A stretch of 64,000 nucleotides of DNA, taken from NCBI RefSeq assembly GCF_003386195.1, contig NZ_QRDX01000003.1, positions 124,001-188,000 of the forward strand. The letters run 5' to 3'. Under the pieces are notes generated by a model that did no database searches, was not told the DNA's origin, and saw only the letters and a program-made list of their open reading frames with translations. The stretch is from Seonamhaeicola aphaedonensis (GTDB lineage Bacteria > Bacteroidota > Bacteroidia > Flavobacteriales > Flavobacteriaceae). Made by a program: the position numbers and the translations under genes. Positions 29,450 through 56,342 of this stretch are shown here, in pieces. How positions within the stretch are numbered: the first letter of the stretch is position 1; each line of letters begins with the position of its first letter.

Positions 29450-32400
29450 ATGAAACCACTTTTACGCTATCTTCTGTTCCTTATCTGTTTATATTCATTT
29501 TCTCAAAATGCACCACAAGTCGTTTTAAAAGACTCTGGAAAACTAAAGCTGTCACATTTGAATGTTGCTGTTAATATCACTGGTAATTACGCAACTACAA
29601 CATACGACATGAAGTTTTATAATGGACTGAATAGAACATTAGAAGGCGAACTGGTATTTCCTTTAGGTGAAGGACAAACCGTTTCACGCTTTGCTATGGA
29701 CGTCAATGGAAAACTACGTGAGGCCGTAATCGTAGAAAAAGAACTAGCAAGAGTAGCTTATGAAAATACCGTAAGACAAAATATAGACCCAGGGTTATTA
29801 GAAAAAACCGAAGGCAACAATTACAAAGCCAGAGTCTATCCCATTCTACCAAAATCATATAAGCATCTTGTTATAACCTATGAGCAGGAGTTGTTCTCAT
29901 CAAATGAAAAGCTTATTTATGAATTGCCATTAGGTATAAATGAGACCATAGATCAGTTTTCATTGGCTATAGACGCATATACCGATCATTTACCAAGAAT
30001 GGAAAACAATGCTTATAATAAGCTCTACTTTAGAAAAAAAGATCAAACCTACAGAGCTAATTTTGAAGAAAAGCACTCCCTTCCTAATAAACCTATAATT
30101 ATTGAAATTCCCAATAAGTCAGGTCAGGAAAGTGTACTATCCCACAGTGATTATTTCTATATAAATAAAACACTTACTCCCAATCTAAAATTAAAAGACA
30201 AACCAAAAGACATTACAATACTTTGGGATGCCTCCTACTCCATGCGTAATCGTAAGTTAGAGGAGGAATTAAAGCTTTTAGGGAATTATATAAGCTACTT
30301 GCAAAATGTCAATATTAACTTAGTAAGCTTTAGTAATGCCGTTCATTCCAACACCATGTTTAAAATTAAAAATGGGAAATGGCATACTTTAAAAGAACAC
30401 ATTAATAACATTACCCATGATGGTGGAACAGCATTTAATAGTTTTCAAAACTTAGATGTTAGCACCGATGAAATTCTTTTGTTTACCGACGGATTATCAA
30501 ATTTAGGATCCTTTTCAAACATTAACAAAGGAGCTATTTACACTATCAATTCAGTAGTTTCAGCTAACCATAGCAACCTTAATACCATTGCAACTAATTC
30601 AGGAGGCAATTACATTAACTTGGTGAGACTTGATCATCAGAGAGCCCTAGAACTTTTAAAACAGGAAACGTTTCAGTTTTTGGGCATTACAGCTAACAAA
30701 TTTGTCTCCGAGGTTTACCCCAATAAAAAAACAAACATTACCAATAATTTTAGCCTTACTGGAAGGTTTTCACAAAACACAACTTTAGAGCTCCTATTTG
30801 GATATGGCGGAAAAGTTACACAGAAGATCCCTATTTATATTGGATCAGCCGAAAGCTCTAAATTGGTGAAACGGCTATGGGCTAAACAAAAACTTAAAGA
30901 CCTAAACACAAATAAAAAAGAAAATAAGGACCGTATCATTAAACATGCTAAACAACACCATCTGATTTCAGATTATACTTCTATGCTAATATTGGATAGA
31001 CTGGAAGATTATGTACGCTATAGAATAGAGCCTCCGCAAGAATTGAAGCGAGAATACAAACAGCGTATTAAAGAGTTAGATGACATCGAAGCTGAAAGAA
31101 AAGAAGAAATACAGGAAAGAAGAGCAGATCTATTTGAAGAGTATCAGGATATTTTAAACTGGTATAAAACAAAATTTCCATTAAAATCTAAGAAAGTCAA
31201 AAAGATTACACAAAGTGCAGAACAAAGCAATACTAATACAACCCAGAATACACAGGAAGCATCACCCAGAACTCAAACTACCATTCCAGTTAATCAAACA
31301 AGGAATCGTACCCATATTGATTCCACAAAGAGAATAGTTAGCGGTCAAGTTCTAGATACATCAGGGCAACCATTACCGGGAACAAACATCTATGTAAAGG
31401 GAACTTCAAGAGGTGCCCAAACAGATTTTGATGGTTACTTTGCAATTAATGCAGAAGTAAATGATGAATTGGAATTTTCATTTTTAGGATTTACTCCAAA
31501 AAGCGTTACTGTAGGTACCCATAGCAATATTCGTATTAATCTTGAAGAAGATGCTTCCATGCTCGAAGAGGTTGTTGTAATGGGGTATGGTGTGCAAAAG
31601 AAATCCTATGTAACAGCTGCAGTTACAACAGTGGTTACACAGGCTTTAGCTGGACGTGTTTCCGGAGTGCAGATAACCACTAATGCTGGAACTCCAGGGG
31701 ATGGTTCTACTGTTAGTATTAGAGGCAATACTTCCATAGCAAATAACTCCCCTCTTTTTATTGTTGATGGAGTTGTATCAGAAACCAATCCATTAGCTAA
31801 ATTAAAACCAGAGGACATAGAATCTATGCAAACACTAAAAGATGATGCCGCCACAGCATTATATGGGTCAAGGGCGAGTAATGGCCTTATTCTTATTGTA
31901 ACCAAAGACGGTAAGGATAAAAATCAAGATGCCATTGAAAAATTAAACGAGGAAATAGCCGAAAAGATTGAATTAAAGCCATGGAATCCAGACACGCCAT
32001 ATATTCACATTTTAGAAAAAGAAGCAACAGTGGAGTCTGCATACAATGTGTACTTAAACTTACGAAATCAATATAGCAATAGTCCTTCATTCTTTCTGGA
32101 TGTTGCCGACTTCTTTGATCAACGAAAATCACCTGAACTGGCTATTAGGATTATAAGCAACCTCATTGAGGTAGAGCTTCATAACCATGAATTAATGCGA
32201 GCGCTTGCATACAAATTAGAGTATTTTAAGCAACACCAATTGGCTACTATTGTTTATGAAAAGGTCCTTGAATTAAGACCGGAAGAACCACAATCGTATA
32301 GAGATCTAGCATTGGCATATGAATACACAGGAAGCCCTAAAAAAAGCTTTGACTTACTATATAAATTATACAACGGTGACTTATTGGAAAAGGATGAAGA

Positions 32401-32887
32401 TGAACGCTTTTATGGCATTGAACATGTAGCCTTTACGGAACTAACACGTCTGGTTTCCAAATACCAGCATAAGCTTAATTTAAGTGAGGAACAACAAAAA
32501 GAATTTACTGATATGCCCCTAGATGTTAGAGTCGTTATTGACTGGAATCATAACGACACCGATATTGATTTATGGGTAACCGACCCCAATGGAGAAAAAG
32601 CGTACTACAGTAACTCTGAAACTAAAATTGGTGGTAGAATGTCCGAAGATTTAATGGAAGGCTATGGCCCGGAATCTTTTTCTCTTAAAAAGGCAATCAA
32701 AGGTAATTATGAGGTTATGGTGGATTATTATTCAGATAACGTTCAAAAAATATCAGGGCCAACAATTCTTAAAGTAACCCTGTTTACAAACTATGCCAAA
32801 CCCAATGAGCAAAAGGAAACTATTGTTGTTAGATTGGATAAAGAAGAAGATGAGGTTGAAGTAGGAAATTTAAGGTTTAATGAATAA
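29450..32887 (+). CDS. VIT-VWA protein with inserted SusC-type plug module
   Basis: A 1145-residue exported protein (signal peptide to about residue 19). Domains in order: VIT (about 20-150, with LEGELVFPLGEGQTVSRFAMDVNG and LLEKTEGNNYKARVYPI); VWA with MIDAS DASYS near residue 260 and the DGGTAFNSF loop; a charged linker; a carboxypeptidase-regulatory-like domain (about 627-700, SGQVLDTSGQPLPGTNIYVKG); a SusC-like TonB-receptor plug (about 705-820, with VVMGYGVQKK, LAGRVSGVQI, PLFIVDGV, LYGSRASNGLILIVTKDG). No barrel follows. Instead there are TPR-like helices (860-1010) and a C-terminal DUF2135/YfaP-like domain (VVIDWNHNDTDIDLWVTDPNGEK). The paralogue at 53121 has a TonB C-terminal domain at the same place. 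Function unknown. Confidence 0.88.
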   Translation: MKPLLRYLLFLICLYSFSQNAPQVVLKDSGKLKLSHLNVAVNITGNYATTTYDMKFYNGLNRTLEGELVFPLGEGQTVSRFAMDVNGKLREAVIVEKELARVAYENTVRQNIDPGLLEKTEGNNYKARVYPILPKSYKHLVITYEQELFSSNEKLIYELPLGINETIDQFSLAIDAYTDHLPRMENNAYNKLYFRKKDQTYRANFEEKHSLPNKPIIIEIPNKSGQESVLSHSDYFYINKTLTPNLKLKDKPKDITILWDASYSMRNRKLEEELKLLGNYISYLQNVNINLVSFSNAVHSNTMFKIKNGKWHTLKEHINNITHDGGTAFNSFQNLDVSTDEILLFTDGLSNLGSFSNINKGAIYTINSVVSANHSNLNTIATNSGGNYINLVRLDHQRALELLKQETFQFLGITANKFVSEVYPNKKTNITNNFSLTGRFSQNTTLELLFGYGGKVTQKIPIYIGSAESSKLVKRLWAKQKLKDLNTNKKENKDRIIKHAKQHHLISDYTSMLILDRLEDYVRYRIEPPQELKREYKQRIKELDDIEAERKEEIQERRADLFEEYQDILNWYKTKFPLKSKKVKKITQSAEQSNTNTTQNTQEASPRTQTTIPVNQTRNRTHIDSTKRIVSGQVLDTSGQPLPGTNIYVKGTSRGAQTDFDGYFAINAEVNDELEFSFLGFTPKSVTVGTHSNIRINLEEDASMLEEVVVMGYGVQKKSYVTAAVTTVVTQALAGRVSGVQITTNAGTPGDGSTVSIRGNTSIANNSPLFIVDGVVSETNPLAKLKPEDIESMQTLKDDAATALYGSRASNGLILIVTKDGKDKNQDAIEKLNEEIAEKIELKPWNPDTPYIHILEKEATVESAYNVYLNLRNQYSNSPSFFLDVADFFDQRKSPELAIRIISNLIEVELHNHELMRALAYKLEYFKQHQLATIVYEKVLELRPEEPQSYRDLALAYEYTGSPKKSFDLLYKLYNGDLLEKDEDERFYGIEHVAFTELTRLVSKYQHKLNLSEEQQKEFTDMPLDVRVVIDWNHNDTDIDLWVTDPNGEKAYYSNSETKIGGRMSEDLMEGYGPESFSLKKAIKGNYEVMVDYYSDNVQKISGPTILKVTLFTNYAKPNEQKETIVVRLDKEEDEVEVGNLRFNE

Positions 32888-33047
32888 AAAAATAACCATA
32901 TTAATTCTTTCTAGGATTAGGTCCTCAACGTAGGATTTTCATTTCGTTTTATTAAATTAGATGCGTTAGTAGAAAAGATTTGTTTTTTCCTATTAGGGTG
33001 GAATAACAAGAAATCTGTTATGTCTGAATAAATTAAAGCTCAATGCA

Positions 33048-33956
33048 ATGCCTTGGAATCAATTACAGTACACTACCGAAAAAGAAATAGAGAATGCTCT
33101 TAGTGACTTAGTAACAGTTGCTTCAAGGCCTAAGGAAGGAGGAGGAATGGTTATTGGCACAGCTTTTCCAATTTTTGCTTCTGACAACCATACTATGATG
33201 CTTACTGCAGCTCATGTTATTGAATTTGCTTTCAAAAAATCTTCTCACTATTCAGAAAGAAAAGATGCAAGAAGCCTCTCCTATTTGCCCGGATCAAGTA
33301 ACAAACCATATAAAATGATAGATAATTGGATTAATGAAACCGATGATCTATGGTGTCTAATTGCAGAGGGGAAAGAGGTGGTTAAATGCAATGTAATAGG
33401 AATTTGTCTTAGACCTCCATTAGATATGGCTTTATTAATCTTGGACACTAGCCATTTAAAGAAAAAAACAGCTGTTTTTCAGATTAATTCCGATATTCTT
33501 AATGTAGGTGATAAAATAGTCCTGACTTCATTTAAGACATCTGGAACAACAAGAGATCTTGTTGCAAAACAAGGAATTATTACAGAAGTAAAATCAAATG
33601 GAGCCTTAGTAAATGCGCCAGTTTATCAAACTAATATTCCTATTGAAGCTGGAGCAAGCGGTGGACCAGTATTTAAATTTAACGGAGATTTTTATGGAAC
33701 TAAAGATGTCGTTGGGGTGGTTTCATCCGATTTTTCTCCACAAGAAGCATTTGAAAACCCAAAGATTGACGGATGTTCCTATATATCAATTATTTGCTCT
33801 GCAACACCTCTTCAAGTAGTAAGCACAAATGGTGAAACCATGACTTTTCAAGATATGTGCAATCGAGGATTGATAAGTGATATTGGCAGTTATATAAAAA
33901 AGGTTAAACTAACCTATTTTGAGGATGGCAATTGGTCGCAGACTTTTCCAAAATGA
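33048..33956 (+). CDS. Trypsin-like serine protease
   Basis: A 302-residue chymotrypsin-fold protease without an evident signal peptide, so probably cytosolic. The triad is visible: His56 in MLTAAHVIE, Asp126 in PPLDMALLIL and Ser204 in EAGASGGPVF, which includes the oxyanion GxSGGP motif. Residues 1-40 are a short pre-domain (ENALSDLVTVASRPKEGGGMVIGTAF). Cytosolic trypsin-like proteases occur in several anti-phage systems, where a partner activates them. The next two genes are membrane-associated and on the same strand with a 97-bp gap, so they could be one unit. Confidence 0.85.
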   Translation: MPWNQLQYTTEKEIENALSDLVTVASRPKEGGGMVIGTAFPIFASDNHTMMLTAAHVIEFAFKKSSHYSERKDARSLSYLPGSSNKPYKMIDNWINETDDLWCLIAEGKEVVKCNVIGICLRPPLDMALLILDTSHLKKKTAVFQINSDILNVGDKIVLTSFKTSGTTRDLVAKQGIITEVKSNGALVNAPVYQTNIPIEAGASGGPVFKFNGDFYGTKDVVGVVSSDFSPQEAFENPKIDGCSYISIICSATPLQVVSTNGETMTFQDMCNRGLISDIGSYIKKVKLTYFEDGNWSQTFPK

Positions 33957-34053
33957 TAAGGTAACACACAATGAAGATTCTGCAACCCCAGTATTTACTT
34001 AAAGCTGTGATTGTATATATTTATTAGGTATTTACATAAATATTTCACATCCA

Positions 34054-34596
34054 ATGGAAATTATAGACAAAGCAAAAGAAAATATCAAAAAGGAAGTTAC
34101 GGATATTGAAAACCGTACGGATATGACTGACGACCAAAAAGTAACTCGTATTTGTACCGTATTTGGAACCACTTGCGCAGCGATTGCAGTACAGCCCATA
34201 CCTTTTGCGGATATATTTGTGTTGACACCTATCCAAGCATATATGGGCAAGAAAATTGCAGATATCAGAGGGTTTAATATATCTGAAGCTGGGGCAAAGG
34301 AAATTTTTAAAGAGCTTGCAGGTCTAGTGGGATTAGGTTTTTTATCTCAACAATTAGTTATTGGAGCTTATAAAACAGTTCTACCATTTATTTCGGGCGT
34401 AACCACAATTCCACTCGTTTTCGGACTTACTTACGGCATGGGAAAAGTGATGGATTACTACTTTGAAAGAAAGGTAAAAGGACAAAAAATAGATCCTGAA
34501 ATGATGAAAGATATCTTCAAAAAAGCAAAGGCGGAAGGAAAGCAAAAGTCAAAAGAGCATAAGGATGAAATCAAGAGAAAAAAGGACAAATTATAA
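34054..34596 (+). CDS. DUF697-like membrane protein
   Basis: A 180-residue protein resembling DUF697/YcjF-type proteins. The signature AAIAVQPIPFADIFVLTPIQAYMGKKIADIRG spans about residues 45-80, followed by Gly-rich hydrophobic helices (LAGLVGLGFLSQQLVIGAYKTVLPFISGVTTIPLVFGL). The C-terminus is strongly basic and charged (KAKAEGKQKSKEHKDEIKRKKDKL). In other bacteria this region is attached to or encoded beside small GTPases; here no GTPase is present. Its stop overlaps the next start by one base, so the two proteins are made together. Confidence 0.75.
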   Translation: MEIIDKAKENIKKEVTDIENRTDMTDDQKVTRICTVFGTTCAAIAVQPIPFADIFVLTPIQAYMGKKIADIRGFNISEAGAKEIFKELAGLVGLGFLSQQLVIGAYKTVLPFISGVTTIPLVFGLTYGMGKVMDYYFERKVKGQKIDPEMMKDIFKKAKAEGKQKSKEHKDEIKRKKDKL

Positions 34597-35420
34597 TGCC
34601 AACAATTAAATACATAAAAAAAGAATTTGACAATCTTTTAATTGTTTCAACATTGGCAAAAATTGCTTACCAAAACTTTGATGCTTTAAGTGAAGAAGAA
34701 ACATATATTCTACAAGCTCTTAAACGAGCTAACCCAGAATTAGAAAATCAAACAACAGAAGAAATAAGCGAACACCTTCAAGATTTAGACGAAACCCAGC
34801 TTTTAGGTTTGAGTAATAATGTTAAAGGAATTTTACACGAAATCCAATTCGTTGAAATGGAAAACAATGATGGAGATAGCGTTACAGCCGCCATGTTTGG
34901 AGACACCAATCACCAAAATACAGATATTCTTTTGACCGATAATAACACTGGAGAAGTAACAGAGATCCAATTAAAAGCAACTGATAATCCTTCTTATGTT
35001 CAAGATTGGATAGACAATCATCCCGAAGGAGAAATTCTTGTTACAGAAGAACTAGCTGAAAAAATGAATTTAGAAACCAGTGGCATATCCAATGAAGAAT
35101 TAACCACGGATGTTCATGATTTTTTAGATAAGCTAATTGAATTGGATGAAAATGACGAACTTTGGGATTACATTCCAACGTTACCGGCAATCTCCATTGC
35201 TGTTTCCTCATTTTATTTATTCAAACTATATAGAGACAATAAAATTTCTTTTAATACTTTAAAAATAAAATTCATCAAACTGACCGGAATGAAAGTGGCT
35301 AAATTCACAATAATTGCAGGGTTAATGATGATACCGGTAATTAATGTAATTGTTGGCGCTGGAATTTTATTTAAGCTCTTATACGGAGCAGGAACATTAG
35401 CAAATAAATATGTCCCTTAA
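34596..35420 (+). CDS. Putative PD-(D/E)XK-like protein with C-terminal membrane helices
   Basis: A 274-residue protein, family not recognised. The N-terminal 70 residues are acidic and helical. Residues 85-135 (ILHEIQFVEMENNDGDSVTAAMFGDTNHQNTDILLTDNNTGEVTEIQLKAT) contain an E...D-I-L-L...Q-L-K series that could be a degenerate PD-(D/E)XK nuclease core with Q-x-K in place of E-x-K. Residues 190-270 hold two or three hydrophobic helices (IPTLPAISIAVSSFYLF, IIAGLMMIPVINVIVGAGILFKLLYGAG). It is translationally coupled to the DUF697-like gene. Nuclease activity is a hypothesis. Confidence 0.6.
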   Translation: MPTIKYIKKEFDNLLIVSTLAKIAYQNFDALSEEETYILQALKRANPELENQTTEEISEHLQDLDETQLLGLSNNVKGILHEIQFVEMENNDGDSVTAAMFGDTNHQNTDILLTDNNTGEVTEIQLKATDNPSYVQDWIDNHPEGEILVTEELAEKMNLETSGISNEELTTDVHDFLDKLIELDENDELWDYIPTLPAISIAVSSFYLFKLYRDNKISFNTLKIKFIKLTGMKVAKFTIIAGLMMIPVINVIVGAGILFKLLYGAGTLANKYVP

Positions 35421-35446
35421 TTAATTAGGTGTATTTAACAATTAGA

Positions 35447-36514
35447 CTACCTAAACCCACAAGAAACCTCAACAGGCTCATTTATATAACAATCAAAATA
35501 AGGACACTTTTTACAATCAAAAGGATCTACAAACACCTCTCTTCTTAGTTCATTCAAAATAGCCCAAGTACGTTGAATCTCTTTTTGTTTGTGCGAAGGA
35601 AGAAATTCTTCACTCTCATTTGATGGAGAAAAAAACCATTTAACATCGTTAATAATTGTGTAATCAGCTCCACTTCGTGTCTTGCTTAACATACCATCCC
35701 ATGTAACACATCTTTTTAATTTATTAAAAATCATATGCTCTGCATGAATATCCTGCAATTTTGATTTCATGATTTTTGGGCAGCATATGACATCGTCATA
35801 ATTAGTTTTTAGAATTTTAAAGCCTTTACGTCTCGACTCACCAACTTTATATTCATATAAGGCTTTTTCGTAATCTTCTTGGGCTTTTTGGGCTTTCCTT
35901 AACCTTTCCTGTCTCTTATCATATCTCTCTTTCAAAAAAGCCTCTTGGTTGCTATAAATCCATTTTTTCAAATCCACAGACTCTATGAGCTTATCCCTTA
36001 AAGTAGTTTTATCAAAGTTTGGTTCCAGTTTAGATAAATCTATTTCAATCGTCGAGACTCCAAAATTTTTTAACTTTTCAAGTTTTTCATCATCAACAAA
36101 ATGCGTAACAGCTATTTCTACAAAAACTTTTTTATTGCCAATATTTAAAACAATATCTGGTCTAAAGTTCCCAAAAGAAACTTCTAACTCAACAGAATCA
36201 ACTTCTACTTCACAACTCTTGGTCAGAACAACACTAATTCGATGTTGATGATCATAAACTTTCAAAGCGGGAATTACAAAACGTTTTTCTGCTTCAATAA
36301 TCTCCTTTGCTAATAAATGCAGCATGGATTCATAGGCCCCTTCACATTCTTCAGCATGATAATGGGCGAAATGATGCTGTTTAATTTTACCCTTTCTGGC
36401 AACTAAAGCCGACTTACAATATGGACAAACACAGTTACAGGCTTTTCCAGAAACAACCTGACTAATATGAACAAGTTCCTTCTTATGAAGTGCATAGGTT
36501 AATTCAATAGACAT
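35447..36514 (-). CDS. CoiA-like nuclease-fold protein
   Basis: A 355-residue protein with the N-terminal zinc-ribbon-like segment of competence protein CoiA (NCVCPYCKSALVARKGKIKQHHFAHYHAEECEG). Then comes a PD-(D/E)XK-like core (SFGNFRPDIVLNIGNKKVFVEIAVTHFVDDEKLEKLKNFGVSTIEIDLS). The C-terminus holds a cysteine cluster (FDCKKCPYFDCYINEPVEVSCGF). Homologues on mobile elements are not linked to competence and may act in defence. Its gene is divergent from the DUF2779 gene and converges on the previous one, with a 26-bp gap. Confidence 0.75.
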   Translation of the reverse strand: MSIELTYALHKKELVHISQVVSGKACNCVCPYCKSALVARKGKIKQHHFAHYHAEECEGAYESMLHLLAKEIIEAEKRFVIPALKVYDHQHRISVVLTKSCEVEVDSVELEVSFGNFRPDIVLNIGNKKVFVEIAVTHFVDDEKLEKLKNFGVSTIEIDLSKLEPNFDKTTLRDKLIESVDLKKWIYSNQEAFLKERYDKRQERLRKAQKAQEDYEKALYEYKVGESRRKGFKILKTNYDDVICCPKIMKSKLQDIHAEHMIFNKLKRCVTWDGMLSKTRSGADYTIINDVKWFFSPSNESEEFLPSHKQKEIQRTWAILNELRREVFVDPFDCKKCPYFDCYINEPVEVSCGFR

Positions 36515-36671
36515 AATCCAATAACAAATTCAGATTTGAGCTAAACAAAAATACACTTCTCATGTCTTTTTTGTGATTTTTCTTATACTTTTTTCTCATA
36601 AATGGGTATATTTAAACTCTCTCTCATTTTATAAAAATAGCTGGCAAAAATTATTATGTAGTAGTTTATTA

Positions 36672-38144
36672 ATGCAACTAACAAAAACCAATTTTATACA
36701 GTATTTGCAATGCCCTGAATCATTGTGGCTATTAAAAAACAAACCGGAAAACTATCCCAATGGGGAATTTTCATTGTTTCTTGAAAAATTAGTAACCGAG
36801 GGTTATGAAGTTGAAGCTTATGCCCAAGATTTGTTTCCGGAAGGATTGAAGCTAGAATCATTTGTCTCACCCGAGAAAACCAAAGCCAAATTATCTGAAA
36901 ACCACTCACACTTTTTTCAACCGGCTTTTGAAACGGCTAAAGGTGCTTTGGCAGTTATAGATATTCTTGAAAAGAATCAAGATGGCTCATACAATATTTA
37001 TGAGGTTAAATCATCTACCTCCATTCATACCGATAAAAAACACAATCACCTAAAAGATGCTTGTTTTCAGAAGTACGTGATGACGGAATGTGGTTATAAT
37101 ATCTCAAAAGTATTTATTATTCATTTGAATAAGGAATATGTAAAGAATGGAGAGATCAATCCCAATGAATTATTAGAGATTAAAGATGTAACCGATAAAT
37201 TAGATGAAATCTATTCCGAAACGGTTAATGAAATTAATGCTGCTTTAAACTTTCTTACAAAACAAATTGATACCTCATCAAACTGCTCATGCATTGAAAA
37301 TACCAGAAACAATCATTGCGACGCCTTTAAATATTTTAACCCAGAGGTCCGACAGCATAGTATTTATGAAATAAACGGAATACGGGCTAAAAAAATAATC
37401 GAGTTACGCGATTTAGGAGTTTTAAATATTAAGGATATTCCTTCTGATTTTGTACTTAGTGAAAAACAACAACTTCAGGTCGTTTCTAATATCCAAAAAA
37501 AACCATTAATTCAAAAAGATGTAATTAATGAAACACTGAATAGTTTAAAGTTTCCACTTCATTTTATAGATTACGAAACCTTTCCAACAGCTATTCCCAA
37601 AGTTGATGGCATGAGACCGCATCAACATCTAACATTTCAAGTATCTATTCATACATTAGCAGAAGATGGAATGATTTCTCATTTTGAATATTTGGCTGAT
37701 AAAATGGAACTGCCCAAAAAGTTAATTGAGGGCATGGAACAATTTACAGGAAGCACCGGAACTTTTGTTTCTTGGTATGCTCCCTTTGAAAAAAAGCGAA
37801 ATGAGGAAATGGCAAGTTTATTTCCAGAACATAAATCATATTTAGAATACATAAATAGTCATATGTTTGACTTGGAGAAACTATTCTATACAGCTTATGT
37901 AGATTATAGGTTCTTAGGTCGAACCTCAATAAAAAATGTATTGCCTGTTTTGGAACCAGAGCTATCGTATAAAAATCTTGAAATTCAAAACGGAACTATG
38001 GCATTAGACACATGGGGTAGATTAATGTTGGAACCTGAATCCTTTGAAGATACAGAAACGGTAAAAAAAGACCTTCTAGCCTATTGTGAATTAGATACCG
38101 AGGCTATGGTTAGGATTTACCAGAAATTAAAAAATTTAAATTAA
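36672..38144 (+). CDS. DUF2779 nuclease
   Basis: The start at 36672 (MQLTKTNFIQYLQCPESLWLL) is chosen because this is the conserved Cas4/RecB-like beginning; the 33 upstream codons encode unrelated hydrophobic residues. The 490-residue protein has an N-terminal PD-(D/E)XK region (VIDILEKNQDGSYNIYEVKSSTSI, with E-V-K) and a cysteine (SCIENTRNNHCDAF) that may join an Fe-S site. The C-terminal DUF2779 domain is of the RNase H/DEDD type (PLHFIDYETFPTAIPKV ... YCELDTEAMVRIYQKL). The family is repeatedly found in defence contexts. It leads directly (18 bp) to the type ISP gene. Confidence 0.82.
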   Translation: MQLTKTNFIQYLQCPESLWLLKNKPENYPNGEFSLFLEKLVTEGYEVEAYAQDLFPEGLKLESFVSPEKTKAKLSENHSHFFQPAFETAKGALAVIDILEKNQDGSYNIYEVKSSTSIHTDKKHNHLKDACFQKYVMTECGYNISKVFIIHLNKEYVKNGEINPNELLEIKDVTDKLDEIYSETVNEINAALNFLTKQIDTSSNCSCIENTRNNHCDAFKYFNPEVRQHSIYEINGIRAKKIIELRDLGVLNIKDIPSDFVLSEKQQLQVVSNIQKKPLIQKDVINETLNSLKFPLHFIDYETFPTAIPKVDGMRPHQHLTFQVSIHTLAEDGMISHFEYLADKMELPKKLIEGMEQFTGSTGTFVSWYAPFEKKRNEEMASLFPEHKSYLEYINSHMFDLEKLFYTAYVDYRFLGRTSIKNVLPVLEPELSYKNLEIQNGTMALDTWGRLMLEPESFEDTETVKKDLLAYCELDTEAMVRIYQKLKNLN

Positions 38145-48659: not shown

Positions 48660-48666
48660 TTTCTCA

Positions 48667-49290
48667 ATGAAAAAATATTTCATCATTCTAATTGCTTTGG
48701 CAATCCATTTTCCAATAGCTCTTTTTAGCCAAGAAACCTTTAATGATGGAATAATCAGTATTGAATATTTTGAGACGGAACAAGTCTCGAACAAGTTAAA
48801 TTTAAATTCTTCAACTAAAATTAGAGGTGAAGGGGTTCAAAAGATAAGCGTAAAATGCAAGATTAAATCATTAAATAAGCAACGGATTGATATAAATAAG
48901 TTTTCGTTAGTAGATACAATAAATAAATTACGATATCGCCCTACAGATGTATCTTATCAACCAGTTGCTGGTTATATGGTTTATGGAAAACTTTTAAAAT
49001 CAGATATAAAAAAGAAAGGATTAGTAGGTCATTATTCATTAGGAGCCTCTTATAAACCTGAAGTTAAAGATTCGTTTTTGGATTATAATATTGAAGGCTA
49101 TACTAATATAGAACCTACATTCAATTTTTGGACGGACAAGGACCCATTGTTATCTAAAATATATTTTAAGCCCCATAAGTTTAAAAAGTTTAAGGCTTTA
49201 TTCTTTTTTGCAATCATAAAGGACGCACCTATTCCAAATTTAGCTTTGTATTATGGAGATAATAAAGTAACGGACATAAGGGTTAAATAA
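48667..49290 (+). CDS. Secreted protein of unknown function
   Basis: A 207-residue protein with a clear signal peptide (MKKYFIILIALAIHFPIALFSQ). The mature domain is beta-rich (GVQKISVKCKIKSLNKQRIDINKFSLVDTINKLRYRPTDVSYQP) and resembles the extracellular Ig-like or DUF4352-type domains that have a conserved Leu-Val-Asp core, but I cannot assign a family. Part of the 47.5-50.1 kb envelope operon. Confidence 0.68.
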   Translation: MKKYFIILIALAIHFPIALFSQETFNDGIISIEYFETEQVSNKLNLNSSTKIRGEGVQKISVKCKIKSLNKQRIDINKFSLVDTINKLRYRPTDVSYQPVAGYMVYGKLLKSDIKKKGLVGHYSLGASYKPEVKDSFLDYNIEGYTNIEPTFNFWTDKDPLLSKIYFKPHKFKKFKALFFFAIIKDAPIPNLALYYGDNKVTDIRVK

Positions 49291-49304
49291 ATTGTTATTA
49301 GACA

Positions 49305-50099
49305 TTGAAGAACCTTCTCCATATAGTAATCATTTTAATACTTACGGTTTTGACCCAAATAGGTGGGTTAGTTTATTTGATTGCATTACTCCTTATTAAA
49401 AAGTCTGTAAATCAGAGACGATTAAAGGGAATTTGTGTTTTTGTTTTTCTGTATTTACTTGTAACGTTTTTAATCGTACCATTTGTTGCTCCAATCTTTG
49501 GGCGTGAAAGAATAAAAGAAACTGAATTTGTTCAGGCACATTCATTCTTTTTTAAACTAGCTAATAGAAATTATGTAAAGTCAGAATTAAACAATGCCAT
49601 TGAAGAAATTGCAAAGGGTTTTGAAAAGCAAAACGCAGGTATTAAGATAGTCTATTTGGATGCCAACTTCCCCTTTATTGACCAATTTCCTTTATTGCCA
49701 CATTTAAGCCATAATGATGGAAAGAAAATTGACATTTCCTTAATCTATGAAAACCCAAACGGAAAGTTGACCAATAAGAAGCCTTCCACAAGTGGTTACG
49801 GAGTCTATGAAGATCCAAAACCAAGCGAATATGATCAAGTATCTGTTTGCCAGAGTAAAGGAAATTGGCAATACGATTTCCCAAAGTATTTAACTTTTGG
49901 CAGAATTAATAAAGACATTAAATTTTCGGAGAGAGGAACACGCAATTTGATAAACCTCATTGTAAAGCAACCTGAAATTGGGAAATTATTCATTGAACCC
50001 CACCTTAAAACGAGGCTGAATTTAACAAATAACAAAATACGTTTTCATGGTTGCCGGGCAGTTAGACATGACGACCATATACATTTACAGTTGAAATGA
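49305..50099 (+). CDS. Membrane-anchored MepA/M15-like zinc peptidase
   Basis: A 264-residue protein from a TTG start, with two N-terminal membrane helices (about residues 4-32 and 44-65) and an extracytoplasmic domain. The domain holds the zinc-peptidase series H-x(6)-D with His136 and Asp143 (SHNDGKKIDISL) and the C-terminal His255, His258 and His260 (VRHDDHIHLQL). This matches the D,D-peptidase/penicillin-insensitive endopeptidase layout (MepA, VanY). It should cut peptidoglycan cross-links or toxin-like cell-wall targets. It overlaps the next gene by 4 bp (ATGA). Confidence 0.7.
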   Translation: MKNLLHIVIILILTVLTQIGGLVYLIALLLIKKSVNQRRLKGICVFVFLYLLVTFLIVPFVAPIFGRERIKETEFVQAHSFFFKLANRNYVKSELNNAIEEIAKGFEKQNAGIKIVYLDANFPFIDQFPLLPHLSHNDGKKIDISLIYENPNGKLTNKKPSTSGYGVYEDPKPSEYDQVSVCQSKGNWQYDFPKYLTFGRINKDIKFSERGTRNLINLIVKQPEIGKLFIEPHLKTRLNLTNNKIRFHGCRAVRHDDHIHLQLK

Positions 50100-50488
50100 T
50101 ATCCAAGAGCAGAGCCCATAAAATGTTCAATTACCTTATTGCCTTGGTTTGGCTCGCAAATGGACTTTTCTGTAAAGTCTTAAACCTTGTTCCGAGACAT
50201 GAACAAGTTGTAGGTAGAATTTTAAGTCATCAGTATTCAGGGGAATTAATATTTATAATTGGCATATTGGAAATTGGTATGGCAATTTGGATTATAGGTC
50301 GTATTAAAACAAAACTAAATGCAATCACACAGATTGTAATTGTCATGACCATGAATATTCTTGAATTTCTGCTGGTTCCTGAATTACTGCTATGGGGTAA
50401 AGCTAATATCCTATTTGCAATGCTTTTTGTTATATTGATTTACTATAATGAATTTGTTTTGGGCAAGAAATTAAACCAACAAAACTGA
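50096..50488 (+). CDS. DoxX-like membrane protein
   Basis: A 130-residue protein with four membrane helices. The motif IALVWLANGLFCKVLNLVPRHEQVVGRIL and the central ILEIGMAIWIIGR match the DoxX-like family (PF13781 type). Function of the family is unclear. It overlaps the peptidase by 4 bp and the DUF2071 gene starts 1 bp after it. Confidence 0.75.
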   Translation: MISKSRAHKMFNYLIALVWLANGLFCKVLNLVPRHEQVVGRILSHQYSGELIFIIGILEIGMAIWIIGRIKTKLNAITQIVIVMTMNILEFLLVPELLLWGKANILFAMLFVILIYYNEFVLGKKLNQQN

Positions 50489-50489
50489 T

Positions 50490-51227
50490 ATGTTCAACAC
50501 CTTAAAGAACCATCCCTTTGCCGTCGAAGCTTTTTTTAAAAGCTCTATTGTATTGACATTTGCCGTTCCTAAAAAACAACTCGAACATCTTATTCCGGAA
50601 TGTTTGGAGTTGGATGCCTTTAATGATAAATGGGCATTTGTAGCTATGGCCATGGTACAAACCAAAGCTTTACGCCCCAAAGGTTTTCCTGAATTTACTG
50701 GTAATGATTTTTTCCTAATTGGCTATCGTGTGTTTGTGAGATATACCAATAATAAGGGAAAGAGGTTGAGAGGCTTATATATTCTTAAATCCGAAACCGA
50801 TAAAAAGAAAATGGAATTTTTTGGTAATATATTTACTCATTATAATTATACCACAACAGACATTTTGCAAACCAAAAATGACAATATACAGACCATTGCA
50901 TCTACACTTTCTAATTTCTGTATTCAATTAGAAGAAGTTGACGAAGATATTACATTGCCTTTAGGCTCCCCTTTTAAAGATTGGAAAGAAGCTAGACGGT
51001 TTGCAGGTCCGTTACCTTTTACGTTTACATATAATGAAGAAAACAAGGAGATCTTAATCATTGAAGGTGTAAGACAAAATTGGAAACCAAAGCCAATCAA
51101 GGTCATAGGTTATGATATTTCATTTTTAAAAGATTTAAGTCTCGAAAATGCTACTTTGGCAAATGCGTTTATAATCAAAGACATTCCATACTATTGGAAA
51201 AAAGGCAATATTGAACAGTTAAAATGA
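50490..51227 (+). CDS. DUF2071 (YqjF-like) protein
   Basis: A 245-residue protein of the DUF2071 family, which has an acetoacetate-decarboxylase-like fold. Recognisable blocks are FAVPKKQLEHLIPECLELD, WAFVAMAMVQTKALRPKGFP, IGYRVFVRYTNNKGKRLRGLYILKSETD and GVRQNWKPKPIKVIGYD. The start overlaps no upstream gene but lies 1 bp after it, and its 3' end overlaps the methyltransferase by 4 bp. Catalytic role unknown. Confidence 0.8.
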   Translation: MFNTLKNHPFAVEAFFKSSIVLTFAVPKKQLEHLIPECLELDAFNDKWAFVAMAMVQTKALRPKGFPEFTGNDFFLIGYRVFVRYTNNKGKRLRGLYILKSETDKKKMEFFGNIFTHYNYTTTDILQTKNDNIQTIASTLSNFCIQLEEVDEDITLPLGSPFKDWKEARRFAGPLPFTFTYNEENKEILIIEGVRQNWKPKPIKVIGYDISFLKDLSLENATLANAFIIKDIPYYWKKGNIEQLK

Positions 51228-51970
51228 AACGAAGAAAATTCCAAGGAGTTTTAAATATTTTGAGCTTTAACAGGCACTTTTACTATTCTGGATTAGGGGT
51301 TTTAGCTTTAATCATTAGCAGTAAGTTGTTTTTTGATTGGCCAGATGTATTATTTTGGACAATTATTTTAGCGTTTCTCTACGGGCTTATAATGCCCTTA
51401 ATAGTTTCTGCATATGTGTATGATTTTTCAGGATATTATAATTTTCTGTGGTTAAAAAACCTTGACATTGCCGATTCAAATGAAAACCAATTTATAAATA
51501 TAAATGCCGGTTTTGATGAAACAAGCTTTATCATAAAAGACAAGTTTCCCCTTTCTAATTTAAAAGTATATGACTTTTACAATGCCAAACAGCATACCGA
51601 GGCTGCAATTATAAGAGCTAGAAAGGTAAGCCTGATATATCCTAACACGGAGCAAATAACTACAAATTTAATTCCTCTTGGTAACAAAAGTGTTGATGTT
51701 ATTTTTCTGTTATCTGCTGTACATGAAATAAGGAATCATGAAGAAAAAATTCAATTTTTAAAGGAATGTAATCGCGTTTGTAAACCCGATGGAAAAGTTA
51801 TCATGGTAGAGCATTTAAGGGATTTTCCAAACTTCTTGGCATTCTCGATTGGCTTTACCCACTTTTTCTCTTTAAACACATGGAGGCGTGCGTTTAAAAG
51901 TGCAGGTTTCTCTTCATTTGAAGAAACCAAGTTTACCTCATTTATGTCTATTATTAAATGCAAACTTTAA
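51224..51970 (+). CDS. Membrane-anchored class I SAM methyltransferase
   Basis: A 248-residue protein with two N-terminal hydrophobic helices (residues 22-42 and 44-66) and a Rossmann methyltransferase domain. The domain is somewhat divergent: motif I (LSNLKVYDFYNAKQHTEAAI) lacks the usual GxGxG, while NKSVDVIFLLSAVHEIRNHEEKIQFLKECNRVCKPDGKVIMVEHLRD is the standard motif II-III region. Lipid or quinone substrates would fit a membrane anchor. Overlaps DUF2071 by 4 bp. Confidence 0.75.
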   Translation: MKRRKFQGVLNILSFNRHFYYSGLGVLALIISSKLFFDWPDVLFWTIILAFLYGLIMPLIVSAYVYDFSGYYNFLWLKNLDIADSNENQFININAGFDETSFIIKDKFPLSNLKVYDFYNAKQHTEAAIIRARKVSLIYPNTEQITTNLIPLGNKSVDVIFLLSAVHEIRNHEEKIQFLKECNRVCKPDGKVIMVEHLRDFPNFLAFSIGFTHFFSLNTWRRAFKSAGFSSFEETKFTSFMSIIKCKL

Positions 51971-51990
51971 CTTAAATCTCCTCTTTTAAT

Positions 51991-52398
51991 ATGCAAATAC
52001 ATTTAAAAATAATTGGTTCGCTTTTAATAGTTCTTTCTTTGATCCATATTATTTTTCCAAAGTATTTTAAATGGAAAGAAGAACTTAATTCGTTAAGCCT
52101 GATGAATCGGCAAATGACCTATATCCATACGCTATTCATTGCTGTAACGGTCTTGCTCATGGGTGTTTTGTGCCTGACATCTACAGATGATTTGATAAAA
52201 ACCGAATTGGGCAATAAAATAGCTTTAGGCCTTGGGGTATTTTGGACGTTGAGGTTGTTCATTCAGTTTTTTGGGTACTCGTCTAAATTATGGAAAGGCA
52301 AAGTGTTTGAAACAGTTGTTCATGTATTGTTTTCAATATTGTGGGTATATATAAGTTTTGTTTTTCTGTGGATCTATTTGAATAGTATAAAAAGCTAA
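51991..52398 (+). CDS. Small four-helix membrane protein
   Basis: A 135-residue protein with four hydrophobic segments (IIGSLLIVLSLIHIIFP, YIHTLFIAVTVLLMGVLCL, IALGLGVFWTLRLFIQFFGY, VVHVLFSILWVYISFVFLWIYL). Family not recognised, but gene order suggests it works with the DoxX-like/DUF2071/methyltransferase set. It ends 6 bp from the convergent glycosidase-like gene with no terminator. Confidence 0.7.
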   Translation: MQIHLKIIGSLLIVLSLIHIIFPKYFKWKEELNSLSLMNRQMTYIHTLFIAVTVLLMGVLCLTSTDDLIKTELGNKIALGLGVFWTLRLFIQFFGYSSKLWKGKVFETVVHVLFSILWVYISFVFLWIYLNSIKS

Positions 52399-52404
52399 AA
52401 CCTT

Positions 52405-53121
52405 TTATTTAGTCTCCCCTATGATTACCCCAAAGTTTCCATCTAATTGCTGCCAGTTTTTTGAAGGCAAATAGGTTTTTGATACAAATCCATCTAAATA
52501 AAGAGCATTCTTACACCCCATTTGTTTGAAGAAAGTTGCAAAGTCATAGAAATTAATCTTTGTTTTAGACATTGCAAAAAGAAGTTTACCGTTGGGTAGA
52601 ACCCCAACCCCATTTCTAATATTTAGGTTTTTTGAACCTTGCCTAAATTTAGGGTGAATTTTTCCTTCTATCAGTAGTAACGGTCCTGATTGTGTGGCAT
52701 ATTTAATATTATCATTTCTAAAATCTTCGGTTTTACATACGACACCTTTGTTTTGGTTAGTAATGTAAAATATACCATTGGGTTGTAAATAAAAATTACC
52801 ATAGCCATTTTTCATTGTATCGATTTCAGACAATGTTAGGCCTTCTTCAATATATAACCCTTGTGGGGATAGATTCTTATCATACATCCCTCCATTCATT
52901 GCGAAAACTAAAGTTTTATTCTTTGACACCAACCAATCCTTTAGATGTTTAAAATTCTTGAAATTTTCACCCAAATCATTTTTCCAATAGAACTTCAAAT
53001 CTTGTTCTTTCCAGTTTACTTCATGAAAAAGTATATTGTCATTTTTGTTATGGTCTATATTGTTATAGGCAAGAAAGCCTAAAACTATTAAGACTAATAA
53101 AATTATTTTTGGAAACTTCAT
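52405..53121 (-). CDS. Phosphodiester glycosidase (NAGPA) family protein
   Basis: A 238-residue protein with an N-terminal hydrophobic anchor or signal (ILLVLIVLGFLAYNN). The conserved family blocks are FAMNGGMYDKNLSPQGLYIEEG, YATQSGPLLLIEGKIHP, NIRNGVGVLPNGKLLFAMSK and CKNALYLDGFVSKTYLPS. The Asn-Gly-Gly-Met-Tyr and Leu-Asp-Gly motifs are those of the NAGPA fold, known for removing sugars from phosphodiesters. It lies after the VIT-VWA gene on the same strand (stop and start overlap at 53121), so the two are probably co-expressed. Confidence 0.82.
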   Translation of the reverse strand: MKFPKIILLVLIVLGFLAYNNIDHNKNDNILFHEVNWKEQDLKFYWKNDLGENFKNFKHLKDWLVSKNKTLVFAMNGGMYDKNLSPQGLYIEEGLTLSEIDTMKNGYGNFYLQPNGIFYITNQNKGVVCKTEDFRNDNIKYATQSGPLLLIEGKIHPKFRQGSKNLNIRNGVGVLPNGKLLFAMSKTKINFYDFATFFKQMGCKNALYLDGFVSKTYLPSKNWQQLDGNFGVIIGETK

Positions 53122-56100
53122 TATATACTCAATTTAGCAATCATTTCCTCATTATCCTTTTTAGTGAGACGAATTATTGTAATTTTCTTTTCCTCATTTT
53201 TAGTTCCATAATTTTTATACATGGTAACTTTCATGAAAGTAGGGTTCTCCTCTTTTTGATACCTGTCCCCGTAATATTTGATTTTAATATAATAATCCCC
53301 TTTTATGGCATTAATCAATGTGAACTCCTCTGGACCAAATCCTTGGGTCATATCTGGTGAAATATGTCCCCCAATATTAGTGGAAGTATGCTTATAAAAA
53401 CACTCTTCAAGATTAGGGTCTATAACATGTAAGTCTATGTCCGTATCATTGTGATTCCAATCTACAACAACCCTTACATCATACACCACTTCATCTAACA
53501 ATCGCTTATCCACTCTACTCAAATCTAAATCGTTTCTATATTTTTTGATGAGGTGTTTTATTTCATTTTCAGCTATTAATGCCACCCCTTTAAAAATACG
53601 TCTATAAGCATTCTCATATATCTTTCCGGTAATAATATCATTATATAAATCTAATGCTCTTTGACACTTACCAACGGCCTCATAAGCCAAAGCTAAATCT
53701 CTGTATGATTGGGAATCTTCAGGTCTTAAATCTAAAATGCGTTTAAAAATGAATAAGGCTAAACCATCATACTTGTTTTCTTGTAAATGATATCCATATA
53801 CTTTTAAAAGCTCATAATTATCAAAGTCAGTTTCAGCAATATTAGAAGCTATTATCGATGAATATTTATGATCTTTAAATCGATTTTGAAAATAATTTGA
53901 CACATCGATATAATATGCAGGGACATCTAAATAATTGTTTCGCTGTTTTAAATATAAAAGATAGGCTTCATCTTTATTATTAGCATGTTTTAATTGCGAA
54001 ATATATTCTGCTTTAACCTTTCGATCACGCACCTCCAACTTTCCAGAATATTTCTTATAATCTATTACGGAAACAACAATACTGGTATCTATTGCTATAC
54101 TTCCTCTTTCTCCTTTTAACTCAAACATTATAGGTAGTGAATAACGGACGTCCACAGGTTTCCCTCGTTGCTCACCTGGTTTCATCTTTGGAAGTAATCT
54201 AATCACTCTCATAATTTCATCGGTTATATCCGGGTGTGGAGATCTTACCCGAATATCGCCTATTTCGCCTTCTGCAGTAATATCAAATAAAACACTTACT
54301 CGCTGCCGACCTGAAAGCCCCAAATCATTGGCAAGTTCTAAATTGAATTTATCTCTAACATGATTACTAACATTTTCAGAAAGACACTTTTTCAAGGCTT
54401 CATTGTTACCCTGACATCCTGGAAATACTGGTGATTTTTCAATTGTCACAAAAGGAATTTGTTCTTCATATCTGGTAATATTATTTGATGGAATATATGC
54501 CCTATCCTCCGTTTCAACTACTTCATCTGAAACTTCAGAAGCAAGTATTCCAAATTGATGAACATTACCTACAACTTCCATTTCCTCAACCTCAACTATT
54601 TCAGAATCCATCTCAAATTGTGTTTCATCCCCAGCATTAAGCATTAGTGGGGATTCCAAAAAACCCTGATGCGCTGATTCGTAGCGCTTACTTTTCTCTG
54701 ATTCAATTCTAGCCAACAAAGCATTATACTCATCCTTTAGTTCATCAGGCGGTGTTATTCTATAGGTAATATAATCCATGACATTCTCTAAAACTATAAG
54801 AGAAGTATAATCTGAAACCAAATCATATAGTACCCCATGTTTTTTTATTTGATTCTTGTTTGCCTTAGAATCTATTTCAAGATGGTCCAATTTCTTTTGA
54901 GCCCAAATACGCCTAACTTGATCACTTTGATTATTTGATTTATCAATACTTATTGCTATGCTTTCCTGAACTTGGTTGCCATATCCAAAATTCAACCTAA
55001 TGGTTTCATTATTTTTTAAATATTTGCCCGAAATAGAGAAATCATTAGTTACACTTACAGGTGCTTTTGGATATACTTCTAAATTTTTTGATTGACTTTC
55101 ATATCCTAAAAACTTATAATTCTCATATTTCAAAGAAGCCATAACATCCTCATTGGATTTAGTATTCAAATTAAGATAAGCTCCATTAGAAGATTCCGCT
55201 AAATGATTTAAAGCCGAATGATTGGATTTAGTAAGGCTATTAACAATAAATAATGGTTTACTTAAATCTAAAGAAGTAGTGCTTAACGATGTGATTCCTT
55301 CTGAAAACAAAAGTTTAGAATCTACATTGTTTTTACGATTATAGATAATATCATAATTCGTTCCTCCATCATAGATAGTTTCTATTATTACTTTTCTAAG
55401 ATCATCCCATGCTCCATTTACAATTTCAAATTGTTCATCATGGATAACCACATTACTAAAGGACACATAATGAACCGTAACATTATTCAAGTGCTTAAAA
55501 TAATTATCTAGTACCTCTGTTTCCTTTTTAATATCCCTATCCTTCATCGAGAGCGAAGCATCCCAAAACAGGGCAATATCCTTTGGTTTAGCTCTCAATC
55601 TCTTTTTAGGGTTTAGTGTTTTATAGATATAGAAATAGTTATCATATGTAAGTGTTTTTTCGGAATTTATTGGAACTGGAATTTTGATCAAAATATTCTT
55701 ATTAGCCTTAAAATTCTTTTTAATCACCTTGGTACTATAGTTCTTATTCCATGTAGAAAATTCAAGACCAGAAATTTGACCTTCAGCAATAATAGGTTTG
55801 GATTTCTGATCGAATACTGTTATCTCCAAACTGAAATGTTCCAATACATTTTTGAAGCCTAATGGTAAATTATAAAAATGATCTCCCTTTCTATATACTA
55901 ATTCCTGTTCATATGCCAATACCACTCTTTTATGACCAGTAGCAGGAATAGGATAAATTCGTGCCTTATAATTATTTCCAGTTCCTTTTTCCAATAAAGC
56001 TGGATCTACACGACGTCTAACAACTTGTTCAAAAGCAATTCTCCCTAACTCTTTATCAACAACAACAGCCTCTCTAAGTTTACCATTAACATCTAAAGCG

Positions 56101-56342
56101 AACCGAGATACATCATGTCCTTCACCTAATGGAAAAGAAAGCTCTCCCTCCAATACATTTTTGGTAGGATTATAAAATAGCATATCATAAGTTGTAGTAG
56201 CAATGTTTCCTACTACATCCACTTTTATATCCAGAGAGGTTAGACCCAATGGTTTGTCTTTTACTTTAACCGTTGGAATGTTTTGAGTGTATCCAAATGT
56301 CATTATCAATAACACAAGAATAAGGGGGAGTCTTGTTTTCAT
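53121..56342 (-). CDS. VIT-VWA protein with inserted TonB C-terminal domain
   Basis: A 1073-residue exported protein (signal MKTRLPLILVLLIMTFGYTQ). Order: VIT domain (LEGELSFPLGEGHDVSRFALDVNG, LLEKGTGNNYKARIYPI); VWA with MIDAS DASLS near residue 260 and YDGGTNYD; linker; TonB C-terminal domain about 635-745 (SPVFPGCQGNNEALKKCLSENVSNHV, VSVLFDITAEGEIGDIRVRSPHPDITDEIMRVIRLLPKMKPGEQRGKPV); TPR-like helices (790-950); DUF2135-like C-terminus (VVVDWNHNDTDIDLHVIDPN). It is a paralogue of the protein at 29450, which has a receptor plug in place of the TonB domain. The gene leads to the glycosidase-like gene. Confidence 0.88.
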   Translation of the reverse strand: MKTRLPLILVLLIMTFGYTQNIPTVKVKDKPLGLTSLDIKVDVVGNIATTTYDMLFYNPTKNVLEGELSFPLGEGHDVSRFALDVNGKLREAVVVDKELGRIAFEQVVRRRVDPALLEKGTGNNYKARIYPIPATGHKRVVLAYEQELVYRKGDHFYNLPLGFKNVLEHFSLEITVFDQKSKPIIAEGQISGLEFSTWNKNYSTKVIKKNFKANKNILIKIPVPINSEKTLTYDNYFYIYKTLNPKKRLRAKPKDIALFWDASLSMKDRDIKKETEVLDNYFKHLNNVTVHYVSFSNVVIHDEQFEIVNGAWDDLRKVIIETIYDGGTNYDIIYNRKNNVDSKLLFSEGITSLSTTSLDLSKPLFIVNSLTKSNHSALNHLAESSNGAYLNLNTKSNEDVMASLKYENYKFLGYESQSKNLEVYPKAPVSVTNDFSISGKYLKNNETIRLNFGYGNQVQESIAISIDKSNNQSDQVRRIWAQKKLDHLEIDSKANKNQIKKHGVLYDLVSDYTSLIVLENVMDYITYRITPPDELKDEYNALLARIESEKSKRYESAHQGFLESPLMLNAGDETQFEMDSEIVEVEEMEVVGNVHQFGILASEVSDEVVETEDRAYIPSNNITRYEEQIPFVTIEKSPVFPGCQGNNEALKKCLSENVSNHVRDKFNLELANDLGLSGRQRVSVLFDITAEGEIGDIRVRSPHPDITDEIMRVIRLLPKMKPGEQRGKPVDVRYSLPIMFELKGERGSIAIDTSIVVSVIDYKKYSGKLEVRDRKVKAEYISQLKHANNKDEAYLLYLKQRNNYLDVPAYYIDVSNYFQNRFKDHKYSSIIASNIAETDFDNYELLKVYGYHLQENKYDGLALFIFKRILDLRPEDSQSYRDLALAYEAVGKCQRALDLYNDIITGKIYENAYRRIFKGVALIAENEIKHLIKKYRNDLDLSRVDKRLLDEVVYDVRVVVDWNHNDTDIDLHVIDPNLEECFYKHTSTNIGGHISPDMTQGFGPEEFTLINAIKGDYYIKIKYYGDRYQKEENPTFMKVTMYKNYGTKNEEKKITIIRLTKKDNEEMIAKLSI

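Follow-up and report, generated by a model that had tools for sequence, protein, structure and literature searches.

Complementary TonB-contact modules alternate in one slot of VIT-VWA proteins from Seonamhaeicola aphaedonensis and its relatives

The DNA analysed in this study (the window) comprises 64,000 nucleotides of the flavobacterium Seonamhaeicola aphaedonensis (contig NZ_QRDX01000003.1 of assembly GCF_003386195.1, positions 124,001 to 188,000) and encodes two paralogous proteins, A and B, that share a VIT-VWA body and carry complementary halves of the TonB-receptor contact in one slot (Table 1). Protein A holds the N-terminal extension (NTE), TonB box and plug of a SusC-type receptor, and protein B holds a TonB C-terminal domain (TonB_C). 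Among relatives the two modules alternate in this slot, and both recur in proteins with unrelated bodies, namely alpha-2-macroglobulin (A2M) and M56/BlaR1-like peptidases. We give roughly even chances to the reading that the slot after the VWA domain is a socket for swappable modules of the TonB circuit, each of which would be a docking handle to the Ton machinery of the cell. The two modules look more like swappable parts than like a private lock-and-key pair. A and B belong to a widespread family of probably exported proteins that resemble the heavy chains of inter-alpha-inhibitor (ITIH), a protease inhibitor of blood.

Architecture of proteins A and B

The original prediction had located both open reading frames (ORFs) correctly, with the addition that B is read from the minus strand, the plus strand of 53121-56342 being riddled with stop codons. 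A and B are the only two VIT matches in a profile search of the genome and are 38% identical overall and 43% identical over VIT-VWA in a pairwise alignment. The VIT, VWA, helical repeats and DUF2135 proposed as their shared body were borne out by Pfam, the A-B alignment and AlphaFold2 (AF2) models. Pfam did not report the VWA of B at E 0.01; this domain is supported by its alignment with that of A, by its DxSxS and DGGT motifs, and by the match of the model to the VWA-bearing ITIH heavy chain. At the site of LLFTDG in A, B has LLFSEG, a change from Asp to Glu. The tetratricopeptide repeats (TPR) are weak in Pfam (B only, 0.0059); the models predict helical repeats for both proteins.

The top Foldseek match of both models was inter-alpha-inhibitor heavy chain 1 (6fpy), with E-values of 5.8e-23 (A) and 7.1e-23 (B), 14% identity and target-normalised template modelling scores of 0.52 and 0.51, respectively, which agrees with the overall fold of the heavy chain. 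A and B share with it the VIT, the VWA and the fold of the next domain, and differ in the low identity, the slot, the TPR helices and the DUF2135 C terminus. The ITIH-like order of VIT then VWA with a metal ion-dependent adhesion site extends to the 145 family rows described below; in a loose pattern search, DxSxS was found in 145/145 and [DGNEH]GxT in 143/145. ITIH heavy chains carry out covalent transfer chemistry.

The modules of A and B fill a shared gap that follows the VWA half, and Pfam profiles confirmed the earlier assignment of a SusC regulatory domain and plug without a barrel to A and of TonB_C to B in that slot; the domain searches and single-chain structure predictions, run on both proteins, upheld the plug and TonB regions. 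NTE, TonB box and plug follow one another in A as in SusC/RagA transporters (Bt1763; PDB 8aa4, 5t3r, 6ytc, 9hfj), and the best sequence matches of the A module are SusC structures (8aa4, 2.1e-37, residues 629-823). A therefore has the three parts that mark the start of a SusC-type TonB-dependent transporter, but the barrel that should come after the plug is absent: no beta-barrel family was found in A with Pfam (up to E 0.01) or NCBIfam, the NCBIfam SusC/RagA model is covered at positions 3-210 only, of 981, and AF2 places TPR-like helices where the barrel would lie. Unlike the transporters, A carries the module inside a VIT-VWA-TPR-DUF2135 chain. In the AF2 model of A (mean pLDDT, the per-residue confidence, 77.8) the NTE is folded, the box and first plug half (706-765) are of low confidence, and the second plug half is folded. 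PMC7782687 describes the nuclear magnetic resonance structure in the same way, with a disordered box beside a folded NTE.

In B, the TonB_C that defines a TonB transducer is complete, running from a P-x-FPGC start to a preserved last strand (YxLPI); both features are shared by a TonB-like protein encoded elsewhere in the genome, to whose TonB_C it is close in the alignment. The AF2 model of B (mean pLDDT 80.6) shows it folded between low-confidence linkers (554-626 and 755-761). The domain differs from that of a transducer in being internal and not C-terminal.

Distribution of the slot modules among relatives

At E 1e-40, a VIT-VWA profile (A2) had matches in 39 of 397 genomes drawn evenly from the family and in 33 of 395 from the phylum, and at E 1e-20 in 21 of 246 from the order; named VIT-VWA relatives, of which 80 of 111 were kept, extend to Acidobacteria, Ignavibacteria and a Desulfobacterales metagenome-assembled genome (MAG). 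A total of 147 distinct ORFs were extracted, from which three fragments (L194, L197, L198) and L001 (the window's B) were removed and to which the two window proteins were added, giving 145 rows. Some rows stop at a contig or locus edge, and for a Dokdonia MAG gene broken by a stop near its start the longer open piece alone was used. Since the A and B architectures recur in independent genomes, they are neither chance products nor assembly artefacts.

Slots were labelled with custom iterated profiles, and L026, L119 and L153, which gave partial matches, were called plug-bearing by hand. Under these labels, 62 of the 145 slots hold a full plug (58 with NTE and plug, 4 with a plug lacking the NTE), 17 hold TonB_C and 66 hold neither. 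The last group divides into 8 slots with the NTE alone, 7 with NTE and box, 9 with the box alone and 42 in which nothing was recognised; a partial match to the start of the plug profile was seen in 10 of the 66. Remnants of plugs from other receptor types were suspected by eye in the slots of five more relatives, a claim that we do not make: the Pfam Plug profile gave 0.0018 for L191 (below the cut-off) and 0.097 for L131, and no support in L061, L136 and L138. A crude motif split of the SusC plug into subtypes gave 6 changes among 43 classed rows, with 15 unclassed.

In a quick LG tree of the VIT-VWA region, supported by the SH-aLRT measure only and with no root inferred, all 17 TonB_C rows fall within one starred set of 23 that is placed among plug-bearing rows. 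Its other six members comprise one plug-bearing Nonlabens protein (Pfam plug 2.7e-13) and five rows with the label 'none', of which two gave a partial plug match. The fewest changes on this tree are 4 for TonB_C, 3 of them forced by starred branches, and 28 for all labels compared with 75 by shuffling. The simplest reading of this pattern is that TonB_C probably replaced the plug, with one such change followed by losses and perhaps a return.

Conservation of the TonB box

In the comparison of slots, the TonB box survives loss of the plug and is missing from slots with TonB_C. Among the rows with NTE and plug, V708 is present in 58/58, L705 in 57/58 and E707 in 53/58. The strict TonB box motif, counted over related sequences, occurs in 52/62 plug-bearing slots, 14/66 slots with neither module and 0/17 TonB_C slots; shuffling gave a mean of 0.019 and a maximum of 1 in 1000 shuffles against the 14 of 66 observed. 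Mean column conservation was 2.43 bits for the box, 2.27 for the NTE core, 1.88 for the segment after the box and 2.11 for the plug. The A-type box motif equals the Bt1763 box VDEVVV, and in the published account of Bt1763 deletion of this box or its change to all Ala led to a strong growth defect on levan (PMC7782687).

The modules in unrelated proteins

The window genome gave 37 plug matches, 35 of them above the cut-off, of which few were examined individually. Besides A, these include a third VWA paralogue, C, and an A2M with NTE and plug. Three further matches were scanned: two have a barrel family, and the third, a 934-residue ORF (L241:1644-4448 minus, contig C1), has an NTE and a plug just below the cut-off and no Pfam barrel family. 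In paralogue C (L202:2023-4995 minus, contig C3) an NTE replaces the VIT and is followed by VWA, a second NTE, a diverged plug and TPR. Type C proteins also occur in several Aquimarina and a Dokdonia MAG; in one of the type, L327, no plug was recognised at E 0.01. TonB_C matches in the window genome number five: three ORFs of ~250 residues, B and an M56/BlaR1-like protein (L238:208-1716).

Both unrelated protein classes, found in Flavobacteriaceae and relatives, were surveyed in 39 relatives' genomes, the window genome included, with 30 of 38 A2M matches fetched and one fragment excluded. The A2M of the window genome (L239:4462-11007, contig C1, 2181 residues) carries its NTE and plug between the bait-region domain and the A2M domain. 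Long A2M proteins have a plug match in 8/17 loci and a TonB box in 11/17, 5 of these with no plug match, and a scan of the 12 shorter A2M ORFs showed no box. In other species of the genus, the A2M slot holds a plug, an NTE only, or neither. In the M56 proteins, which number 46 in 25 of the 39 genomes, the module lies in the C-terminal part: 18 carry TonB_C, 14 a half-plug, 1 both and 13 neither (one of the latter a contig-edge fragment). The protein with both (L316:1080-3248) combines two TonB_C domains and a half-plug in one chain, as confirmed by Pfam.

These observations bear on the alternative that the modules are passengers, with abundant SusC and TonB segments recombining into permissive linkers, decaying and having no function there. 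Plugs are plentiful donors in the genome, numerous slots contain nothing or an incomplete module, the modules diverge more than the body, and the A2M slot varies among congeners. However, the TonB box is retained in slots lacking a full plug, both in VIT proteins and in A2M, the whole domain is kept in the 17 TonB_C rows, and loss of a plug with retention of its box would be unexpected of passengers. We consider this explanation unlikely.

Co-occurrence of the A and B types

A second alternative is a dedicated pair, in which the TonB_C of B would grip the TonB box of A to form a two-protein envelope complex. The original prediction that A and B may dock with each other stands in so far as both contact halves are complete, the box in A and the full TonB_C in B, and both genes lie on one island, but co-occurrence of the two types proved not to be the rule. 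Among the 397 family genomes, for each of which the three best candidates were scored so that second copies may be missed, the plug type was found in 27, the TonB_C type in 4 and both in 1, the window genome; the 39 matching genomes further include 7 with other slots and 2 with unlabelled fragments only. The proposed survey of co-occurrence thus gave a divided answer: 10 of the 17 genomes with the TonB_C type also have the plug type (7 Kordia, one Aquimarina, Aureibaculum and the window genome), compared with 27 of 397 in the family sample, whereas 26 other plug-bearing family genomes gave no TonB_C type under the same scoring and 3 other TonB_C family genomes were likewise found with a single type. 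Of the 7 TonB_C genomes lacking the plug type, 3 have a near-full-length type C and 4 do not. B is therefore not an obligate partner of A, with both types in 10/17 TonB_C genomes and 1/397 family genomes.

All candidates were scored in the Kordia and named-genome searches. The latter covered whole genomes for 39 named genomes, drawn from 42 loci of the 80 with L010, L033 and L047 left out, and found two copies in 3/39: plug and TonB_C in Aquimarina MMG016 and Aureibaculum flavum, and in Aquimarina 4R5-1-G a plug copy with a copy having no recognised domain (a loose box match only). Of 11 Kordia genomes, 7 have both types, 1 has A only, 1 has B only and 2 have neither (Fisher p = 0.15, the genomes not being independent), and in two single-contig Kordia genomes with both types the copies lie more than 1.6 Mb apart. 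The box has drifted in 6 of the 7 Kordia with both types (L016, L021, L029, L140, L152 and L153), and the Kordia with A alone (L028) retains LDEVVV. Such drift could mark a private contact, as the paired reading would have it, or relaxed constraint, and it was not seen in the window, Aquimarina MMG016 or Aureibaculum. For the M56 proteins of the 39 genomes, co-occurrence of the two types is weak (both 10, TonB_C only 9, plug only 5, neither 15; p = 0.11). Overall, A-B pairing is enriched in a few lineages and is neither general nor needed, and the presence of the same modules in unrelated proteins argues for a general link to Ton rather than a private pair. We consider a dedicated A-B complex decidedly unlikely.

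Genomic setting of A and B

The earlier view that both genes belong to one island holds, with a direct repeat, a tRNA-Asn gene and an integrase flanking the pair. The island spans 22704-58779 (36 kb), is integrated at tRNA-Asn and is bounded by a 25-base direct repeat whose two copies are 88% alike. No full-length VIT-VWA match was found in six congeners searched, which suggests that the VIT-VWA genes were recently gained.

Between A and B the island encodes a type IIG restriction enzyme, parts of McrBC, and an HNH ORF that resembles PtuB weakly, scoring below the cut-off of the PtuB model. It was previously suggested that A and B might mimic or block the host TonB system, perhaps as an exclusion or defence device. 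On such a reading, the plug without a barrel or the TonB domain without an anchor would belong to a defence island and jam the TonB system, for instance to stop TonB-dependent phages or bacteriocins. In its favour stand only the neighbouring genes of the island, together with the expectation that free TonB domains compete; no PADLOC family matched A or B at E 0.001, so membership of a known anti-phage defence system was rejected for both, and A2M and M56 proteins carry these modules as well. A role as a decoy or exclusion device is regarded as very unlikely.

The island further holds a DUF5906/VapE-like protein, RadC and an ORF (34596-35420) matching the PADLOC candidate PDC-M72B (7.6e-27), upstream of which lie a trypsin-like ORF (33048-33956) and a DUF697 ORF (34054-34596). 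An ORF for a NAGPA-like phosphodiester glycosidase (52405-53121, minus) shares a single base with the end of B, an operon-like arrangement, and none of the other fetched loci contains a homologue of it. A four-gene cluster near B (50096-52398), including a DUF2071 protein and a methyltransferase, has a counterpart adjoining an A-type VIT gene in another flavobacterium (L013:13398-15648). Homologues in any other fetched locus were found for 7 of the 30 window genes tested, many loci carrying only ~1.5 kb of flank. No gene-neighbourhood partner was established: of the 30 largest neighbour clusters most are confined to one clade, two, of 12 and 9 loci, occur in more than one, and another, with 13 loci, lies apparently antisense to the VIT gene.

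Table 1. Positions in the window of proteins A and B, their domains and the ends of the island
Feature	Coordinates	Strand	Basis
Protein A, 1145 aa: VIT-VWA-(SusC-type NTE + TonB box + plug)-TPR-DUF2135	29450..32887	+	Pfam, NCBIfam, AF2; signal-like N terminus by eye
A: VIT domain, residues 35-144	29552..29881	+	Pfam 1.8e-24
A: VWA domain, residues 254-337 in Pfam; DASYS at 260, DGGT at 324	30209..30460	+	Pfam 1.5e-5 and motifs
A: CarbopepD_reg_2 (PF13715), the SusC NTE, residues 630-710	31337..31579	+	Pfam 1.4e-19; sequence match 8aa4, 5t3r; fold match 9hfj, 6ytc
A: SusC-type TonB box LEEVVVMG, residues 705-712, predicted disordered	31562..31585	+	Column conservation; pLDDT <50 at 706-765
A: plug, residues 727-812; second half 769-818 predicted folded	31628..31885	+	Pfam 1.6e-13; AF2
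A: TPR-like helices, residues ~850-1017	31997..32500	+	AF2; TPR structures among Foldseek matches
A: DUF2135, residues 1082-1129	32693..32836	+	Pfam 1.4e-11
Protein B, 1073 aa: VIT-VWA-(TonB C-terminal domain)-TPR-DUF2135	53121..56342	-	Pfam, AF2; signal-like N terminus by eye
B: VIT domain, residues 34-144	55911..56243	-	Pfam 2.4e-19
B: VWA-like region, residues ~255-391; DASLS at 261, DGGT at 325	55170..55580	-	Alignment with A, motifs, fold
B: TonB C-terminal module, residues 632-748 (Pfam 673-742)	54099..54449	-	Pfam TonB_C 4.4e-8; AF2; alignment with own-genome TonB-like protein
B: DUF2135, residues 1012-1059	53166..53309	-	Pfam 2.9e-9
Left attachment-like repeat; 17-bp exact core 22712-22728	22704..22728	.	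Repeat comparison
Tyrosine integrase, just inside left repeat	22894..24216	+	Pfam Phage_integrase 5.5e-10
Right attachment-like repeat; core 58763-58779; overlaps tRNA-Asn 3' end	58755..58779	.	Repeat comparison, tRNA call
tRNA-Asn gene	58765-58839	-

Discussion

Under the proposed socket, the slot takes one of three modules: a TonB box by itself, the SusC-type NTE with box and plug, or TonB_C. Protein A would offer TonB a box on a flexible tether without a barrel and would thereby be recruited to, or pulled by, TonB-ExbBD, and protein B would offer a free, unanchored TonB domain that may hold the TonB boxes carried by receptors or by A-like proteins. Binding of the functional ligand would fall to the VIT-VWA-TPR body. 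A and B need not pair, and could also meet in a genome that has both. Recruitment, force and clamping are each what the modules would be predicted to bring about.

Several findings weigh against this proposal. The box counts represent related sequences and not independent events, and the strict box is missing in 52/66 slots with neither module and in 10/62 plug-bearing slots; in 6 of 8 Kordia A-type proteins it has drifted to LEAVT- or LQEVAV-like forms. Many slots (42/145) hold nothing recognisable. Mean identity over 324 pairs is lower for the modules (plug 48%, NTE 52%) than for the body (VIT-VWA 62%, C terminus 70%), and this faster divergence also fits weaker constraint. The direction from plug to TonB_C goes beyond the tree, since its root was not inferred. 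None of the 46 M56 proteins has a TonB box, the second plug half being present alone, so the plug as a handle bearing the TonB box fails to explain that class. Lastly, as read from the sequence and the model, B has an N-terminal helix (4-18) followed by the VIT region and lacks the transmembrane (hydrophobic) anchor and linker that stand directly before TonB_C in TonB, which makes the usual energising impossible.

A link between a VWA fold and motors of the Ton/Tol type has a parallel in the vWA periplasmic force transducers described in PMC12204202. As portrayed there, a transmembrane helix, in many cases with an SHLS motif, tethers those proteins to the inner membrane, and the VWA itself forms their C-terminal domain, which bears no relation to TonB_C; in A and B a VWA is instead joined to the TonB contact. 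Among the matches listed from the open-access literature (titles and abstract openings, with subscription papers outside the scope), no VIT-VWA-plug, VIT-VWA-TonB_C, A2M-plug or M56-plug protein appeared. The parts all belong to known families; what was not seen in those matches is the alternation of complementary TonB-contact modules in one ITIH-like slot, a box that outlives its plug, and their recurrence in A2M.

Conclusions

A bolder extension of the socket, which we regard as possible but rather improbable, is that non-transport envelope proteins of Bacteroidota, such as ITIH-like proteins and A2M traps, took over the TonB box of receptors as a portable pull-tab, by which the motor would recruit, open or reset them by force, while their TonB_C relatives would clamp those boxes without being powered themselves. 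Transporters are known to bear TonB boxes, as are colicins; here the box stands on barrel-less ITIH-like and A2M-like proteins, with a TonB domain in its place in a paralogue. With one short motif shared by two bodies that are unrelated, and one TonB domain likewise shared by two, the idea is exactly testable. If it is true, the Ton motor or its contact code would serve non-transport functions of the envelope.

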